Source: Rhodopseudomonas faecalis
GTDB taxonomy: Bacteria > Pseudomonadota > Alphaproteobacteria > Rhizobiales > Xanthobacteraceae
Reading direction: 5' to 3'
Length of the DNA: 64,000 bases
NCBI RefSeq assembly: GCF_003217325.1
Contig: NZ_QJTI01000001.1
Coordinates: forward strand, 158,454 to 222,453
Shown: piece by piece, positions 5,495 to 58,519 of the stretch
How positions within the stretch are numbered: the stretch's first letter is position 1
How the letters are laid out: each line of letters begins with the position of its first letter
Position numbers and translations under genes: made by a program
The notes under the pieces: generated by a model
The model's database searches: none
What the model was told of the DNA's origin: nothing
What the model saw: only the letters and a program-made list of their open reading frames with translations

Positions 5495-6370
5495 TCAGTC
5501 GGATTGTCTTGCGATCCACAGTGTGTGCTCGCGAGAAAATGCTTTCTCCGCGTCGTTCACAAATTCAGAAAATTCCGCGTCTGTTGAGATCGCGTCGGTC
5601 TGCATTTTGATGAGGCCAATTTCATGGGCGGTAACAGTATAGGCGGCTGCTAATTCGTTAAACTTCTTGATCTGCATCCAGCCAACCACGGAGGCTGCGA
5701 TCACAATCAAAGGCTCGATTGGCCAATACAGCCATTCCGGCGCAGCGATACGTCCCAATGCGAGCGCACAGGCCGATACATATACGCATGCACTCACGGC
5801 GACCCAGAGGGTCGCCCCCTTCTTGTTGCGTGTCGCTTTTCGAGTGTACCACTCTCTTTGATCAGCAATTCGATTCTTGATGTAGTAAGCTAAGCGATCT
5901 TGCATTGTCATTGAGCGGATTTTCCGCATTCCGTCGGTAATCTGGTCGTTGCCAGACCAATCACTAGTGATCTTCTCGGCAGTTGTTCGGTTCTGGGCAA
6001 AAATCGAATGAAGCTGATTTCGAAGTTCGGCCTTAGCTTGTTGCTCGTCGCCAGATAGGTGATCGAATGGTGCCGCATGCATAACATAGCGCCAAGTTAA
6101 AGTTTTCACGCTTTCGGCGAGTGCGCGGCACCGATACCAGTCTTGCTCTGGCTTGCGCAGTGCCCTTGTGAGCAATACCGCCAAGCCAATCAGGAAAATC
6201 ATAGCATACGAAAAATAGTACCAAACTCCGTTCAGAAAATTCATGGAGAATACTGCGGCTAGGAAGAGTGCGGCATATTCAACTCTTACCAACAGCAGGA
6301 ACTGCGATTGAAACTTGTTTGAGGCGTCATCTGAGCACAAGAAGAGAGCCGGATAGTCGGTATCGGTCAT
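5495..6370 (-). CDS. DUF4231 (SLATT-like) four-TM membrane protein
   Basis: The 291-aa protein starts MTDTDYPALFLCSDDASNKF, typical of DUF4231. Two hydrophobic hairpins are visible, about residues 30-70 and 185-233, separated by a charged cytoplasmic-looking segment with RCRALAESVKTLTWRYVMHA (81-100). A conserved-looking helix follows the last membrane segment. DUF4231 belongs with SLATT-type membrane proteins, proposed effectors in nucleotide-signal conflict systems (from memory of Burroughs and colleagues). It is the promoter-proximal gene of a two-gene unit with the TIR gene, 12 bp apart. The likely role is a membrane-disrupting effector triggered by the TIR product; this is inference. Confidence 0.8.
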   Translation of the reverse strand: MTDTDYPALFLCSDDASNKFQSQFLLLVRVEYAALFLAAVFSMNFLNGVWYYFSYAMIFLIGLAVLLTRALRKPEQDWYRCRALAESVKTLTWRYVMHAAPFDHLSGDEQQAKAELRNQLHSIFAQNRTTAEKITSDWSGNDQITDGMRKIRSMTMQDRLAYYIKNRIADQREWYTRKATRNKKGATLWVAVSACVYVSACALALGRIAAPEWLYWPIEPLIVIAASVVGWMQIKKFNELAAAYTVTAHEIGLIKMQTDAISTDAEFSEFVNDAEKAFSREHTLWIARQSD

Positions 6371-6447: not shown

Positions 6448-6687
6448 CTAGTGCTTACGATCCCTCGGAGGGATCGGGTCGTTTCCATAGCTGTCGCTGT
6501 CCTGAATGCGGCCGTTGCGCCCATGTTCGACTAGCTCGGTTTGTCGGTCTCGCGCTAACTCCCTTCCTCTGCCCATGGCATCGGACTTGCGCTCAAAATG
6601 GCCGCTTGATCTTTCTGATCCCTCGCGCCGGATGTCCCAGCCACCACGATCGCCATTTGGTACCACATGATAATCGCGCTTCGCCAT
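6448..6687 (-). CDS. DUF2188 domain-containing protein
   Basis: The 79-aa hydrophilic protein begins MAKRDYHVVPNGDRGGWDIR and ends with GRIQDSDSYGNDPIPPRDRK, the two conserved blocks of DUF2188. Function is unknown. It sits divergently isolated between the DUF4231/TIR cassette and nrdJ, on the same strand as both, with 77 bp to the DUF4231 start. It could share transcription with the cassette but its composition is more like the host. Confidence 0.8.
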   Translation of the reverse strand: MAKRDYHVVPNGDRGGWDIRREGSERSSGHFERKSDAMGRGRELARDRQTELVEHGRNGRIQDSDSYGNDPIPPRDRKH

Positions 6688-6785
6688 GTTCGGCTCCTAT
6701 TGCTGCATCTGATATCGTTCATGATATGTTCTGTAATGTGAAGGGCGGCGAGTAGTCGCCGCCCTTCAACCTGTGGACTAGTAGC

Positions 6786-51519: not shown

Positions 51520-51607
51520 ACACTTATCCACCGCGGGCGGGCGGTGGCGGGAACGGCGCGGCCAGAATAAGCCCGAATCGTGTGAGATTCGGGCTATGGA
51601 TGAAGCC

Positions 51608-52876
51608 ATGAGCGACCCAGTTCGTACCCCTCCCTTTGCGCCATTCGAATGGCTGTTGTCCGGCCGCTATCTGCGGGCGCGGCGCAAGGAGGGATTCATC
51701 TCGGTGATTGCCGGGTTTTCGTTCGTCGGCATCATGCTCGGCGTCGCGACCCTGATCATCGTGATGGCGGTGATGAACGGCTTCCGTAAGGAGCTGCTCG
51801 ACAAGATCCTCGGCCTCAACGGCCATCTGCTGGTGCAGCCGCTGGAAAGCCCGCTCACCGACTGGAAGGACGTCGCCGACCGCATCAACGGCGTCACCGG
51901 CATCCGGCTGGCGGCGCCGGTGGTCGATGGTCAGGCGCTGGCGTCCTCGCCATTCAACGCCTCGGGCGTGTTCGTGCGCGGCATCCGCGCCGACGACCTC
52001 AATAATCTGACCTCGATCGCCAAAAATATCCGGCAAGGCACGCTGGAGGGCTTTGATCAGGGGCAGGGCGTCGCGATCGGCCGCCGGCTCGCCGATCAAT
52101 TGTCGCTGCATGCCGGCGACAGCGTCACGCTGGTGGCGCCGCGCGGCGCGGTGACGCCGATGGGCACCACCCCGCGCATCAAGCCGTACAAGGTCGCGGC
52201 GGTGTTCGAGATCGGCATGTCGGAATACGACTCGACCTTCGTGTTCATGCCGCTCGCCGAAGCGCAGGCCTATTTTAACCGCTCGTCCGACGTCACCGCG
52301 ATCGAGGTCTACACCTCCAATCCGGACCGGATCGACATGTTCCGCAAGGCGGTGACCGAGTCGGCCGGCCGCCCGGTGTTTCTGGTCGATTGGCGGCAGC
52401 GCAATTCCACGTTCTTCAATGCGCTCCAGGTCGAGCGCAACGTGATGTTCCTGATCCTGACGTTGATCGTGCTGGTGGCGGCGCTCAACATCGTGTCCGG
52501 TCTGATCATGCTGGTGAAGGACAAGGGCTCCGACATCGCCATTCTGCGCACCATGGGCGCCTCGCAAGGGGCGATCATGCGGGTGTTCCTGATCACGGGC
52601 GCCGCGATCGGTGTGGTCGGCACGCTGACCGGCTTCATCGTCGGGCTGGTGGTCTGCCTGAATATCGAGTCGATCCGGCAGTTCGTGTCCTGGCTGACCA
52701 ATACCGAACTGTTTTCGCCCGAACTGTATTTCCTCTCGAAGCTGCCTGCCGAGATCGACGTCGGCGAGACCAGCGCGGTGGTGATCATGGCGTTGACGTT
52801 GTCGTTCCTGGCGACCCTGTATCCATCCTGGCGCGCGGCGCGGCTCGATCCGGTCGAAGCGCTGCGTTACGAATGA
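51608..52876 (+). CDS. lolC: Lipoprotein-releasing ABC transporter permease
   Basis: Membrane part of the LolCDE-type complex, which extracts lipoproteins from the inner membrane. The 422-aa product has TM1 near residues 30-55 ([20 protein letters not shown]), a large periplasmic MacB-like domain, then three TM helices at about 275-295, 320-345 and 385-410. The FtsX signature is clear and the end reads [18 protein letters not shown]. The ATG at 51608 or 51596 could be used. Alphaproteobacteria commonly have one LolF-like permease, so the symbol could also be lolE/lolF. The stop overlaps lolD. Confidence 0.9.
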
Positions 52877-53583
52877 GCGTGCCGATGGAGGAAGTTGCCG
52901 AAGAGGTGCCGGTCGTTTATCTGCACGACATCAAGCGGCAATACGTGCAGGGCGAGTCGGTGCTGACCATTTTGGGCGGCGCCAAGCTGGCGCTGTGGGC
53001 CGGGCAGTCGGTGGCGCTGGTGGCGCCGTCGGGCTCGGGCAAATCGACGCTGCTGCATATCGCCGGGCTGCTCGAACATCCCGACGAGGGCGAGGTCTAT
53101 ATCGGCGGCACCGCCACCTCCGGGCTGAGCGATGCTGAACGCACCCAGATCCGCCGCACCGACATCGGCTTTGTCTATCAGTCGCACCGGCTGCTGCCGG
53201 AATTCTCGGCGCTGGAAAACGTGATGCTGCCGCAGATGATCCGCGGCCTGAAACGGTCCGAGACCGTGTCGCGCTCCAAGGAAATTCTTGGTTATCTCGG
53301 GCTTGGCGATCGCATCACCCATCGTCCGGCCGAGCTGTCGGGCGGCGAACAGCAGCGCGTCGCGATCGCCCGCGCGGTCGCCAATGCGCCGCGGGTGCTG
53401 CTGGCCGACGAGCCGACCGGCAATCTCGATCCGCACACCGCCGACCATGTGTTCCAGGCGTTGATGCAATTGGTGCGCGCCACCCAGGTGGCGATGCTGA
53501 TCGCGACCCACAATATGGAGCTCGCGCATCGCATGGATCGACGGGTGTCGATCCAGGACGGTCAGGTCATCGAACTCGATTGA
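52873..53583 (+). CDS. lolD: Lipoprotein-releasing ABC transporter ATPase LolD
   Basis: ATPase partner of the permease immediately upstream. The 236-aa protein shows Walker [21 protein letters not shown], signature [20 protein letters not shown] and Walker [18 protein letters not shown]. The ATG at 52873 overlaps the lolC stop (ATGA), so translation is coupled. Confidence 0.95.
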
Positions 53584-53644: not shown

Positions 53645-53890
53645 CTAGCGCTGCTGATGGCGTCTGGCGCGCGGCTGTTGCGGCGGCGTGTAGAACGGAT
53701 TGACCATGCAGGCCGCGGCGCGGCCGGTGGCCGACGGCCGGCATTGCTCCATCGAAATGTAGCTGCAATCGTCATAGGTGATCGGGCCATAGACGTGCAG
53801 ACAATAGGGCGCCGAGCTTTGCGCCGACGCCTCGGCCGCGACCAGCAGCGCGGCCGAACAACTGATCAGGGCTAGTCCAACGCGGCGCAT
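53645..53890 (-). CDS. DUF3551 family secreted protein, copy 1
   Basis: The 81-aa precursor has a signal peptide (MRRVGLALISCSAALLVAAE, cleavage near ASA-QSS) and the DUF3551 cysteine pattern: APYCLHVYG, YDDCSYISMEQCRPSATGRA, ACMVNPFYTPP. The ATG at 53890 follows GGAGG. Mature proteins of this family are small, periplasmic and of unknown function; they are abundant in Bradyrhizobiaceae. A paralogue lies at 54079-54348. Confidence 0.85.
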   Translation of the reverse strand: MRRVGLALISCSAALLVAAEASAQSSAPYCLHVYGPITYDDCSYISMEQCRPSATGRAAACMVNPFYTPPQQPRARRHQQR

Positions 53891-54078
53891 CACGGCCTCC
53901 TGCATCAGAACCTCCTGTTGGCGCGTGGCGAAGGTGCGCGCGCCCGGCGGCAGGGCCGGTGTTACAGCTTCGGTTCTGACGTCATCAGAACGAAGCCGTA
54001 ACTTTATGCTCTGATGCGTTTTCGTGACGCGAACCGGGATCCACTTCGCTCGACAACGCCATCGGCCGGCCGTGCGGC

Positions 54079-54348
54079 TCAGTCGCGGGTGCGGCGCACC
54101 TTCTTTTTGTAGGTGCGGCGCTGAGGCGGTTCTTCATATTTGTAGAACGGGTTGACGTCGCAATAGGCGTAGCGCCCCGAGGCGCTGGCCTGGCACTGGG
54201 CATAGCTGGTGTAGCTGCAGTCACCGAGCGGGGCCAAATATTCCCGGGCTTTTAGGCAAAACGGGTAGTCCCGGGCCTGCGCCGGGCTCGCGGCATCAAC
54301 AGCCGCAACCGCGCTCAGCGCCAGCAATGACAGAAACGCACGCCGCAT
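54079..54348 (-). CDS. DUF3551 family secreted protein, copy 2
   Basis: The 89-aa precursor has a signal peptide (MRRAFLSLLALSAVAAVDAA, cleavage near AQA-RDY) and the same layout as the neighbouring paralogue: DYPFCLKAREYL, GDCSYTSYAQCQASASGRYA, YCDVNPFYKYE. Its C-terminus is strongly basic (RTYKKKVRRTRD), unlike copy 1. The two copies are separated by about 190 bp, which argues for an old duplication. Confidence 0.85.
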   Translation of the reverse strand: MRRAFLSLLALSAVAAVDAASPAQARDYPFCLKAREYLAPLGDCSYTSYAQCQASASGRYAYCDVNPFYKYEEPPQRRTYKKKVRRTRD

Positions 54349-54529
54349 CTGGTCCTCCATTCGGCCACCGCCGACTCCATGTTCCGCAAAGACCAAGCCG
54401 CGATTGCCGTGCCGCGTCAACTCGGTTGCATGCACGAGGTTCGCTGGTGTGGCCCCCAGCGCACAGCGTGTCATTCACCATGTCGGATGCCAACCGGGGC
54501 GACGCTAGTGATGCTGTGAGAAAGGGCGC

Positions 54530-54572
54530 TTGACTTCTAGAACAAATGTGGAACACTGTTCATGTTACGTTC
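54530..54572 (+). promoter_or_regulatory. Double LexA (SOS) operator and promoter
   Basis: Two alphaproteobacterial LexA boxes are exact: GAACAAATGTGGAAC (54540-54554, GAAC-N7-GAAC) and GTTCATGTTACGTTC (54558-54572, GTTC-N7-GTTC), 3 bases apart, giving a symmetric array. TTGACT at 54530-54535 is a likely -35 element, so LexA would cover the spacer and the -10 region. The next gene begins 18 bp later with GGGAGGAAGCC before its ATG. Confidence 0.8.
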
Positions 54573-54590
54573 TCTTGGCGGGAGGAAGCC

Positions 54591-54689
54591 ATGCTGAAGA
54601 CGTTCATTGAAGAAGCCGCGGCCCTGACCTCGATCGTGTTGTTCGTCGGCATGATTGCCGTCTGGGCCCAAGTCATTCCCCAGCTCTAA
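54591..54689 (+). CDS. 32-aa SOS-controlled single-TM peptide, SidA-like
   Basis: The ORF begins MLKTFIEEAAALTSIVLFVG and ends MIAVWAQVIPQL. Residues 1-9 are a short amphipathic, acidic start; about 11-29 form one hydrophobic helix. It has a strong ribosome-binding site (GGGAGGAAG) and lies directly behind two LexA boxes. In Caulobacter the SOS response induces SidA, a membrane peptide of about 29 residues that blocks division; this peptide has the same size, topology and control. Homology has not been tested. It is distinct from dnaE, whose start is 335 bp downstream. Confidence 0.75.
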   Translation: MLKTFIEEAAALTSIVLFVGMIAVWAQVIPQL

Positions 54690-55024
54690 TTCAAATTCCT
54701 GCAGCTTGAAGGTCCCGAGTCGGGTCGCATAGCTCTGCCCTGTGAACGGGTGCAGCGCTGTGGTACGGGGCCAGTTCTGGGCATTCGCGCTTGGCCCCCG
54801 ACGCTGCTGGCCCGTTTTGAGCGGGCTGGCAGCGGCTGGGGAAAAGCCAGGCAGCGGCCGCGCCAGGCGGCCTGGCCGGGGCGACGGCCGTGGACTTGGG
54901 CGGGACGGCGACGCACCATCCAGGTCCCGAGTCGGGGCGCCCCCCGCCGTTGCGTGGCTCCCCGCGGGGCGCGCTGGTGCCCCGATCGCGTTTTGGTTCC
55001 CGCTTGTCGGATTGTTGCTGCGTC
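54690..55024. other. Intergenic region upstream of dnaE
   Basis: 335 bp without a supported gene. Open frames here belong to the in-frame upstream extension of dnaE and have no family support. The dnaE promoter could lie here, or transcription could continue from the LexA-controlled unit. Confidence 0.5.
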
Positions 55025-58000
55025 ATGTCCTCTGCCGGTTTCATTCACCTGCATGTCCATTCGGCTTTTTCGCTGCTGAAAGGCTCGATCAAGGTCCAGA
55101 AGCTGGCCGAGCTCGCCAAGGCGGATCACCAGCCGGCGCTGGCGCTGACCGACACCGACAACATGTTCGGCGCTTTGGAGTTTTCCGAGAAGCTCGCGGG
55201 CTATGGCATTCAGCCGATCATCGGCTGCGAGCTCGCGATCGATTTCGGCGACATCGATCCCAACGCCCGCACCCCGCTGGCGTCGGCGCCGTCGCGGATC
55301 GTGCTGCTGGCGGCGCGCGAAGCCGGCTATCTCAGCCTGATGAAGCTCAATTCGCGGGCGTTTTTGGAAACGCCGGTCAATCAGGCGCCGCACATCAAGG
55401 TCGACTGGCTCAAGGGCGAGACCGAGGGCGTGATCGCGCTCACCGGCGGTCCGGACGGCTCGATCGCACAGGCGCTGGCGTTCGACCATGCCGATCTCGC
55501 CGCGCAGCGCTGCGACCGGCTGGCGGAGCTGTTTGGCGACCGGCTCTATATCGAGCTGCAGCGTCATGGCGTCGATGCCGAACGGCGCGTCGAGCCGGGC
55601 CTGATCGATCTGGCCTATGCCAAAGGGCTGCCGCTGGTCGCGACCAACGAGCCGTATTTCGCCAGCACCGATGATTACGAAGCCCATGACGCGCTGCTGT
55701 GCATCGCCGGCGGCAAGCTGATCGCCGAAACCGACCGGCTGCAGCTCACGCCTGATCACCGTTTCAAAACCCGCGCTGAAATGGCGGTGCTGTTCGCCGA
55801 TCTGCCCGAAGCGCTGGCGTCCACCGTCGAGATCGCCGAGCGCTGTGCCTATCGGCCGCGCACCCGCAAGCCGATTCTGCCGCTGTTTACCGTCGGCGCC
55901 GGCGATCATGCCGCCGACGCCGCCAGCGCCGAGGCCGAGGAACTGCGCGGCCAGGCCGAGCGCGGCCTTGTCAAGCGGCTGGAGGTGCATGGCCTCGCGC
56001 AGGGCGCCAGCGAAGAGGACTATCGCGCGCGACTGGCATTCGAGCTCGACGTCATCAGCCGCATGAAATACGCCGGCTACTTCCTGATCGTGTCGGACTT
56101 CATCAAATGGGCCAAGCAGCACGGCATTCCGGTCGGGCCGGGCCGTGGTTCGGGCGCCGGCTCGCTGGTCGCTTACGCGCTGACCATTACCGACCTTGAT
56201 CCGATCCGCTTTGGCCTGCTGTTCGAGCGCTTCCTCAATCCGGAACGCGTCTCGATGCCGGACTTCGATATCGACTTCTGCCAGGATCGCCGCGGCGAAG
56301 TGATCGAATATGTGCAGCAGCGTTACGGCCGCGATCAGGTCGCGCAGATCATCACCTTTGGAACGCTGCAGGCGCGCGGCGTGCTGCGCGACGTCGGCCG
56401 CGTGCTGCAAATGCCCTATGGCCAGGTCGATAAGCTCACCAAGCTGGTGCCGCAAAACCCGGCCGCGCCGGTGACGCTCAAGCAGGCGATCGAGGGCGAA
56501 CCGAAGCTGCAGGCGTTCCGCGACGAAGACCCGGTGGTGGCGCGTGCTTTCGACATCGCGCAGCGGCTCGAAGGCCTCAATCGCCACGCCTCGACCCACG
56601 CCGCCGGCATCGTGATCGGCGACCGGCCGCTCTCGGAATTGGTGCCGCTCTATCGCGATCCGAAATCGGACATGCCGGTCACCCAGTTCAACATGAAATG
56701 GGTGGAGCCGGCCGGGCTGGTGAAGTTCGACTTCCTCGGCCTGAAGACGCTCACCGTGCTCGACGTTGCGGTCAAACTGCTCAAGCAGCGCAACATCCAT
56801 GTCGAACTGCCAAAAGTGCCGCTCGACGATCCCGATACTTTTGCGATGCTGACGCGCGGCGATGTGGTCGGCGTGTTCCAGCTGGAAAGTCAGGGCATGC
56901 GGCGCGCGCTGATCGATATGCGCCCCGACCGTTTTGAAGACATCATCGCGCTGGTGGCGCTGTATCGCCCGGGCCCGATGGCGAACATTCCGACCTATTG
57001 CGCCCGCAAACATGGCGAGGAGGAGCCGGAATATCTGCATCCGATCCTGGAGCCGATCCTGAAGGAGACGTTCGGCGTCATCATCTATCAGGAGCAGGTG
57101 ATGCAGATCGCGCAGGTGATGGCCGGCTACTCGCTCGGCGACGCCGACCTGTTGCGCCGCGCCATGGGTAAGAAAATCCGCGCCGAGATGGATAAGCAGC
57201 GCGCGATCTTTGTCGCAGGCGCGGTCAAGAACGGCGTCGCCAAGGATGCCGCCGACACCATTTTCGACTTGCTCGCCAAATTCGCCGACTACGGCTTCAA
57301 CAAGAGCCACGCCGCGGCCTATGCGCTGGTGTCGTATCACACCGCCTATATGAAGGCACATTATCCGGTGGAGTTCTTGGCGGCGTCGATGACGCTGGAA
57401 ATCCACAACACCGACAAGCTGTCGGAATTCCGTTCCGAGGCGCAGCGGCTGGGGATCAAGGTCGAACCGCCGTCGATCAACCGTTCCGGCCCGACCTTCG
57501 AGGTTGCCGACAACACCATCTTCTACGCGCTCGCCGGTTTGAAGGGCGTCGGCCACCACGCGGTCGAGCAGATCGTGGAGGGGCGGCAGGGCGGCAAGTT
57601 CAGCTCGCTCGCCGACTTCGCCGCCAAGGTCAATCCGCGCGCCATCAACAAGCGCCTGGTCGAATGTCTGGCGGCGGCCGGCGCCTTTGACGAGATCAAT
57701 CGCAACCGTGCCGCGGTGTTCGCCGGCGCCGAGGCGATCATCGCCGCCTGCCAGCGCCATAACGAGGCCAAGGAGCTCGGGCAGAGCGACATGTTCGGCG
57801 GTATGTCGGACGCGCCGAGCATCATGCTGCCGCAGGTCGAGCCGTGGTTGCCGGCCGAGCGGCTGCGCCGCGAATATGATGCGATCGGCTTCTTTCTGTC
57901 CGGCCATCCGCTCGACGATTATGCCACCGCGCTAAAACGGCTGCGGGTGCAGAGCTGGGCGGATTTCTGCAAGGCGGTGAAAGCCGGCGCCACCGCCGGC

Positions 58001-58519
58001 AAGGTCGCCGCAACCGTGGTGACGCGCCAGGAGCGCCGTACCAAGACCGGCAATAAGATGGGCATTTTGGGCCTGTCCGACCCGACCGGCCATTTCGAGG
58101 CGGTGCTGTTTTCCGAAGCGCTGGCCCAGTTCCGCGAGATTCTGGAGCCGGGCGCGGCGGTGTTGCTGCAGCTCGGCGCCGAGCTGCAGGGCGACGACGT
58201 GCGCGCCCGGATTCTGCAGGCCGATCCGCTCGATGACGCCGCCGCCAAGACCCAGAAGGGGCTGCGGGTGTTTTTGCGCGATACCAAGCCGCTGGAATCG
58301 ATCGCCAAGCGGCTGCAATCGCCCGAGGCCGCGGCCAGCCCGACCCCGGCGTTCGGCCGGCGCGGCGGCAGCAATGGCGATGGCGACGTCACCTTGGTGA
58401 TGATGATCGACCTGGAAACCGAGGTCGAAGTGAAGCTGCCGGGCCGCTACCGGGTGTCGCCGCAGATCGCCGGCGCGCTGAAAGCGGTGACCGGCGTGGT
58501 CGACGTTCAGACGGTGTAG
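55025..58519 (+). CDS. dnaE: DNA polymerase III subunit alpha
   Basis: Replicative polymerase. The 1164-aa chain starts MSSAGFIHLHVHSAFSLLKG with the PHP domain. The polymerase core has GPGRGSGAGSLVAYALTITD and the catalytic aspartates in MPDFDIDFCQDRRGEVIEYV; later come YQEQVMQIAQVMAGYSLGDA, the helix-hairpin-helix region (LKGVGHHAVEQIV) and the OB fold (GNKMGILGLSDPTGHFEAVL). Length and PHP domain fit DnaE1; the error-prone DnaE2 is shorter and travels with imuA-imuB, absent here. The ATG at 55025 is the family start. Confidence 0.95.
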   Translation: MSSAGFIHLHVHSAFSLLKGSIKVQKLAELAKADHQPALALTDTDNMFGALEFSEKLAGYGIQPIIGCELAIDFGDIDPNARTPLASAPSRIVLLAAREAGYLSLMKLNSRAFLETPVNQAPHIKVDWLKGETEGVIALTGGPDGSIAQALAFDHADLAAQRCDRLAELFGDRLYIELQRHGVDAERRVEPGLIDLAYAKGLPLVATNEPYFASTDDYEAHDALLCIAGGKLIAETDRLQLTPDHRFKTRAEMAVLFADLPEALASTVEIAERCAYRPRTRKPILPLFTVGAGDHAADAASAEAEELRGQAERGLVKRLEVHGLAQGASEEDYRARLAFELDVISRMKYAGYFLIVSDFIKWAKQHGIPVGPGRGSGAGSLVAYALTITDLDPIRFGLLFERFLNPERVSMPDFDIDFCQDRRGEVIEYVQQRYGRDQVAQIITFGTLQARGVLRDVGRVLQMPYGQVDKLTKLVPQNPAAPVTLKQAIEGEPKLQAFRDEDPVVARAFDIAQRLEGLNRHASTHAAGIVIGDRPLSELVPLYRDPKSDMPVTQFNMKWVEPAGLVKFDFLGLKTLTVLDVAVKLLKQRNIHVELPKVPLDDPDTFAMLTRGDVVGVFQLESQGMRRALIDMRPDRFEDIIALVALYRPGPMANIPTYCARKHGEEEPEYLHPILEPILKETFGVIIYQEQVMQIAQVMAGYSLGDADLLRRAMGKKIRAEMDKQRAIFVAGAVKNGVAKDAADTIFDLLAKFADYGFNKSHAAAYALVSYHTAYMKAHYPVEFLAASMTLEIHNTDKLSEFRSEAQRLGIKVEPPSINRSGPTFEVADNTIFYALAGLKGVGHHAVEQIVEGRQGGKFSSLADFAAKVNPRAINKRLVECLAAAGAFDEINRNRAAVFAGAEAIIAACQRHNEAKELGQSDMFGGMSDAPSIMLPQVEPWLPAERLRREYDAIGFFLSGHPLDDYATALKRLRVQSWADFCKAVKAGATAGKVAATVVTRQERRTKTGNKMGILGLSDPTGHFEAVLFSEALAQFREILEPGAAVLLQLGAELQGDDVRARILQADPLDDAAAKTQKGLRVFLRDTKPLESIAKRLQSPEAAASPTPAFGRRGGSNGDGDVTLVMMIDLETEVEVKLPGRYRVSPQIAGALKAVTGVVDVQTV

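Follow-up and report, generated by a model that had tools for sequence, protein, structure and literature searches.

Organization of the region upstream of dnaE

The window, i.e. the whole stretch of 64,000 nucleotides of Rhodopseudomonas faecalis DNA that was analysed, contains a 32-codon ORF on the + strand (54591–54689) directly upstream of dnaE. The latter encodes the DNA polymerase III alpha subunit (55025–58519, + strand), was identified by PF07733, PF17657 and PF02811 and by dnaE N-terminus searches, and serves as the syntenic anchor downstream. On the other side lie an ABC ATPase gene (52885–53583, + strand; PF00005), which we take to be lolD-type, and a permease gene (51596–52876, + strand; PF12704 and PF02687), presumably of the lolC/E type. 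Two DUF3551 genes (53645–53905 and 54079–54474, − strand) are located between lolD and the ORF, the nearer one divergent from it. A simple scan of the gap between the ORF and dnaE (54690–55024) found no terminator-like site on the + strand; GGTCCCGAGTCGGG occurs twice in this gap, at 54711 and 54923.

All elements in front of the ORF are on the + strand. The likely −35 element, TTGACT (54531–54536), is followed by two exact LexA boxes inverted to each other, box 1 of the GAAC-N7-GAAC form (GAACAAATGTGGAAC, 54540–54554) and box 2 of the GTTC-N7-GTTC form (GTTCATGTTACGTTC, 54558–54572), and then by a ribosome-binding site (GGGAGGAAG, 54580–54588). The boxes are 3 bp apart and box 2 is 18 bp from the ORF, which confirms the original prediction of two exact LexA boxes with this spacing 5′ of an ORF with a strong ribosome-binding site. 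As TTGACT is the likely −35 element, the boxes sit where RNA polymerase would bind; a generic promoter scan gave no full consensus promoter. An upstream in-frame start at 54546, giving a 47-aa reading, was rejected because it falls inside box 1, and the ribosome-binding site and the conserved start point to 54591.

Single exact LexA boxes occur in the window at about the level expected by chance (three seen, 1.78 expected, with 26 of 100 shuffles reaching three), and their genome-wide count is 105, compared with 89 when the pattern is reversed. The double arrangement of 33 bp is rare, with one place in the genome and 24 carriers among 397 genomes of the order; read backwards, as a control, it is present in one genome of this list. 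Seventeen of the 24 carriers belong to the window's family, and in each of them the operator adjoins the peptide by coordinates, while five belong to a second family, f22. The double operators of the remaining two (G136 and G362) adjoin other ORFs and were not counted as support; the one in G362 (locus L058, family f6) is perfect and lies 5′ of a different, unidentified ORF (MALYQAPSFEALERLSQSRD...). The genome also has lexA, with its own LexA box 93 bp 5′ of the lexA start.

A further exact LexA box in the window (GTTCATGATATGTTC, 6717–6731) is located 29 bp before a DUF2188 gene (6448–6687, − strand); downstream of it, also on the − strand, lies a gene (5495–6370) for a defence-type 2TM effector with SLATT_3 and SLATT_1 domains. 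The two genes are possibly an SOS-controlled effector unit. The box was rejected as an operator of the ribonucleotide reductase gene, as that gene, on the − strand, ends there and the box precedes the DUF2188 gene. A further copy of this 15-mer, at G000:C2:111222, is 3.6 kb away from a second gene for a DNA polymerase III alpha subunit, probably dnaE2.

The 32-codon ORF is a constrained gene

Using the window peptide (MLKTFIEEAAALTSIVLFVGMIAVWAQVIPQL) as the query at a threshold of E 0.1 or better, we obtained matches in 51 of 101 genomes, namely in 49 of the 61 from the window's own family and in two of the 40 from the rest of the order; at this threshold the remaining 12 family genomes gave no match. 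A further search brought the family genomes with a match to 62, in which 64 loci were read. Within 120 nt of the start, 58 of these loci carry two exact LexA boxes, five carry one and a single locus carries none, the last being a second, unlinked copy in G037. This copy (L380, on G037:C13; MLKTVLHEAVRLASVALLVGVVIAWAAVKTGGV) exists alongside a linked one. Another genome, G019, also has two copies of the peptide, with two LexA boxes each. Among the 44 best-scoring of the 64 loci, the boxes are spaced by 3 bp in 42, by 1 bp in one and by 31 bp in one, and TTGAC lies within 14 nt 5′ of the first box in 43. A Shine–Dalgarno-like site was found in all 44 and in all 20 further loci.

The 44 best-scoring loci comprise 43 distinct coding sequences, for which pS is 0.541, pN is 0.137 and dN/dS is 0.158, with pS exceeding pN in 903 of 903 pairs. 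Identity at the three codon positions is 0.77, 0.94 and 0.57, compared with 0.29 3′ of the stop codon. The 32-codon ORF is thus a real, constrained gene. Of the conditions set out with the original prediction, conservation of the peptide in relatives and a synonymous/non-synonymous signature of coding are fulfilled, and the LexA boxes are conserved as well, with at least one box in 63 of the 64 family loci. AlphaFold2 gives one confident helix (residues 2–31, mean pLDDT 96.4), in agreement with the single hydrophobic helix that had been proposed for the product. Neither Pfam nor NCBIfam has a family for the three peptides searched (the best Pfam hit, DUF5516, has an E-value of 0.062 and 13.3 bits against a cut-off of 25), and no match to the peptide was found in the plasmid collection.

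Small membrane peptides lie upstream of dnaE across the class

The five f22 genomes (L059–L063) carry the same double operator 5′ of quite different peptides of 24–32 aa. In L059, dnaE directly follows, and in the other four the operator is upstream of dnaE by coordinates. Since the peptides differ while the operator and its position relative to dnaE stay, the region upstream of dnaE was read in other genomes. The link to dnaE is also seen in a linkage test based on sequence alone, in which 14 genomes had both a peptide match and a place for dnaE; in 14 of 14 a match lies on the same strand and no more than 700 nt upstream of dnaE, the gap reaching about 700 nt.

Searches for the dnaE N-terminus located it in 274 of 289 genomes of the class, 138 of 140 genomes of the order and 29 of 30 named Caulobacterales. 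From these, 186 dnaE loci were read (30 and 60 from the class search, 67 from the order search and 29 from the named Caulobacterales); they are not independent, since the window itself is among them and there are several close relatives. Of the 186 loci, 74 have an exact LexA box in the 800 nt 5′ of dnaE, and in 65 the box is followed by a ribosome-binding site and an ORF of 20–60 aa with a hydrophobic helix. These 65 ORFs are in fact 26–47 aa long. For five decoy patterns, the corresponding counts were 0, 0, 0, 1 and 0.

A locus was counted as a member of the family if it has a box plus peptide, or a match at 1e-3 or better to the profile described below. By this rule, members are present in 39 of 71 loci of the order, representing 25 of its 51 families read, in 16 of 86 other loci of the class and in 24 of the 29 Caulobacterales. 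No member was found by this rule in the remaining 26 families of the order or in 70 of the 86 other class loci.

A lolD relative is within the range read at 40 of 64 dnaE loci with the peptide, compared with 67 of 119 without it (three of the 186 were dropped because of short upstream sequence), and was not seen at the other 24 peptide loci. As it is also found where there is no peptide, lolD marks the neighbourhood of dnaE rather than the peptide.

The Caulobacterales 29-mer probably corresponds to SidA

In named Caulobacterales, an ORF of 29–30 aa with a single helix is found directly upstream of dnaE at 27 of 29 loci, starting 114–161 nt 5′ of dnaE; eight of nine further named genomes have a match to a profile made from these peptides. 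In a Caulobacter vibrioides MAG (L173), neither dnaE nor the peptide was found, and PopZ, used as a marker in 46 other genomes of the class, did not pick out a Caulobacter. Among 36 such ORFs, an exact LexA box lies within 120 nt in 18 and is absent in 18, and one-mismatch boxes are present in eight of 10 rows without an exact box. At L254, L255, L259, L262–L264, L269 and L271, the promoter carries GAAC-N7-GAAT, with one mismatch, and a second one-mismatch box just after it; repression at these loci may rely on two weak boxes.

Caulobacter SidA is reported to be 29 aa long (PMC4211646) and is encoded by CCNA_02004 (PMC10769358). Its start codon has been re-mapped by ribosome profiling (PMC4117421), and the passage available does not give the new length. 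On one side, CCNA_02005 is an inosine–uridine nucleoside hydrolase (PMC3667746), and in L279 the 29-mer is flanked, on the side away from dnaE, by a PF01156 gene (E 6.9e-78). On the other, dnaE is listed as CC1926 and lexA as CC1902 (PMC1839093), and lexA also as CCNA_01979 (PMC11535069); the offset of 77 between the two lexA tags makes dnaE CCNA_02003, if the offset holds over 24 genes. From its length, its gene order and tags and its neighbours, we infer that the 29-mer upstream of dnaE is SidA; the sequence of SidA from C. crescentus NA1000 itself was not read.

The window peptide is homologous to the Caulobacterales 29-mer

A profile was built from 29 peptides upstream of dnaE in the order, which were chosen by box, ribosome-binding site and hydropathy only, without regard to sequence similarity, and which exclude the window's family and the Caulobacterales. 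Run on 245 sequences, it recovers the window peptide at E 1.7e-13 and 14 Caulobacterales peptides at 8e-7 to 2e-3, the first unrelated ORF appearing at E 0.31. Many of the top rows are labelled background; these were judged by eye to be family members missed by the filter. When every small ORF upstream of dnaE was searched, 33 of the 157 loci not used for training had a profile match at 1e-3, and of 829 antisense ORFs 0 matched at 0.1 or better. With this antisense count and the decoy counts given above, a chance origin of the box and peptide was rejected. In block shuffles, the score of the window peptide was reached in 0 of 2000 and that of the 29-mer in 1 of 2000. An hhalign comparison gave P 5.6e-5 over 26 columns with 35% identity, with a probability of only 66%, and plain BLASTP gave no alignment between the window peptide and the 29-mer. 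These results support the common descent of the window peptide and the Caulobacter peptide, as judged from sequence comparison. The original description of the peptide as like SidA in size, topology and control is supported, and the homology together with the shared position upstream of dnaE strengthens it from SidA-like to SidA ortholog.

The best explanation, which we hold with considerable confidence, is that the ORF represents this lineage's sidA, an ortholog of the Caulobacter gene, and encodes a LexA-repressed division inhibitor; the binding of LexA, the induction, the orientation of the peptide and its action on FtsW and FtsN are inferred. It could still be that a relative of SidA has moved to another target in the divisome, such as FtsN in the manner of DidA, or to an unrelated membrane partner. 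The family diverges fast, the f22 peptides of 24 aa going unrecognized by the profile. Two class peptides (L148 and L103) and four of the five f22 peptides are among the background in the profile search (E 0.33–4.8), and the membership of these six therefore rests on operator and position alone. We nevertheless regard a change of target as improbable, given that the conserved position argues for orthology and that two-hybrid tests show contacts of SidA itself with FtsW as well as with FtsN (PMC4211646).

Pairwise comparisons bear on whether the peptide might instead depolarize or slow the cell rather than inhibit the divisome. TisB is a LexA-controlled SOS membrane peptide of E. coli, and a peptide of the TisB or DinQ type would share the size class, the SOS control and the single hydrophobic helix with the window peptide. 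DinQ is described as a toxic single-transmembrane SOS peptide (PMC3567139). In shuffle-tested alignments, the window peptide aligns to the 29-mer with p 0.0007 and 0.0033, whereas alignments to TisB (p 0.66 and 0.53), KdpF and CydX are no better than shuffles (p 0.4 or more); for these three, the sequences used were not database records. Three residues are kept across families: of 41 rows, not all of them independent, 36 have an acidic residue preceding the core of the helix, 27 a Phe in the middle and 27 a Trp towards the far end. All three are found in the window peptide, and the 29-mer has the acidic residue and the Phe. Their retention suggests a specific contact, and this, together with the profile match to the Caulobacter 29-mers and the same gene position, makes a depolarizing peptide decidedly improbable. 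TisB and DinQ occupy other gene positions.

That the ORF is merely a translated leader of dnaE, or a route for bringing dnaE under LexA with the peptide product secondary, as its position before dnaE, the short distance in Caulobacterales and the absence of a + strand terminator-like site between the genes in our simple scan might suggest, is barely credible: a leader and nothing more would not be expected to show constraint on its amino acids or residues kept from family to family, the gap to dnaE is up to about 700 nt, and SidA is reported to suffice for inhibiting division in Caulobacter (PMC4211646).

Proposed mechanism and relation to known systems

If the ORF is the sidA of this lineage, in undamaged cells LexA would be bound to both boxes, 3′ of the −35 element and 5′ of the start codon, and the promoter would stay shut. 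DNA damage would activate RecA, LexA would be cleaved and the promoter would open. The 32-residue peptide would then be made and inserted into the inner membrane, its N-terminus probably inside (an inferred orientation), where it would lie along FtsW, possibly also FtsN, in the divisome, and septal wall synthesis by FtsW/FtsI/FtsN would be held inactive until repair is complete. That LexA binds the boxes, that damage induces the gene and that division is arrested through FtsW/FtsN are all inferences by analogy with SidA; the literature searched yielded no data on expression, binding or phenotype in this lineage. The genome does contain ftsW. The sidA promoter responds to mitomycin C in Caulobacter (PMC5189948), SidA is proposed to hold FtsW/FtsI/FtsN inactive (PMC4211646), and AlphaFold3 models place SidA on FtsW TM7, not at high confidence (PMC13396833).

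The peptide shares with Caulobacter SidA (CCNA_02004) a small size, a single inner-membrane helix, predicted control by LexA, a place directly upstream of dnaE and profile homology. It differs in having 32 residues rather than 29, a Trp where the 29-mer has Val, a lolD-type upstream neighbour rather than the nucleoside hydrolase of L279, and no functional data. The two inverted LexA boxes also differ from Caulobacter, where ~97% of SOS promoters are reported to carry one box (PMC12700426); by this comparison the double operator is unusual, and we can only guess that two boxes give tighter repression of a growth-stopping product. DidA of Caulobacter is likewise a small damage-induced inner-membrane inhibitor of division that acts on FtsW/I/N (PMC4211646), yet it is SOS-independent, being controlled by DriD, and binds FtsN; the promoter of the window peptide carries LexA boxes, which speaks against that mode of control here. 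YneA of Bacillus, SosA of Staphylococcus and ChiZ of Mycobacterium are damage-induced membrane division inhibitors as well, and AlphaFold3 places them on FtsW TM7, again not at high confidence (PMC13396833). They are other proteins, ChiZ with a LysM domain, and in these models SidA sits across TM7 from them (PMC13396833). TisB and DinQ of E. coli are SOS-controlled single-helix peptides too, but they are membrane toxins, and TisB has no sequence resemblance above shuffles.

A broader hypothesis holds that the class Alphaproteobacteria has had sidA as a checkpoint gene from ancient times, that the link of sidA to dnaE predates the split between Caulobacterales and the window's order and has been kept since, and that this link is functional, in that the opened LexA promoter would also raise dnaE transcription and couple division arrest to DNA synthesis. 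SOS transcription may run into dnaE, as no + strand terminator-like site was seen in the gap and the Caulobacterales ORFs start so close to dnaE. We consider the hypothesis as a whole unlikely.

In the literature searched, which did not include the paper that first described SidA or the 2004 survey of the LexA regulon, all descriptions of SidA come from Caulobacter, and we found no SOS division inhibitor for rhizobia or their relatives; an earlier mention of relatives is not excluded. The 'sida' strings in PMC9638019 and PMC10811719 refer to the Sidak test, not to SidA. The kind of system is known, and what is new, in that the literature searched did not turn it up, is this member and the breadth of the family. 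With them, what was a peptide of a single genus becomes a family that is broad, changes fast and keeps a fixed place in the genome. The putative SOS division inhibitor that the evidence offers for a large family is given with its exact ORF and promoter; members were found in 25 of the 51 families of the order that were read, and its natural variants at the acidic residue, the Phe and the Trp are material for mapping how a helix of 30 residues stops FtsW.
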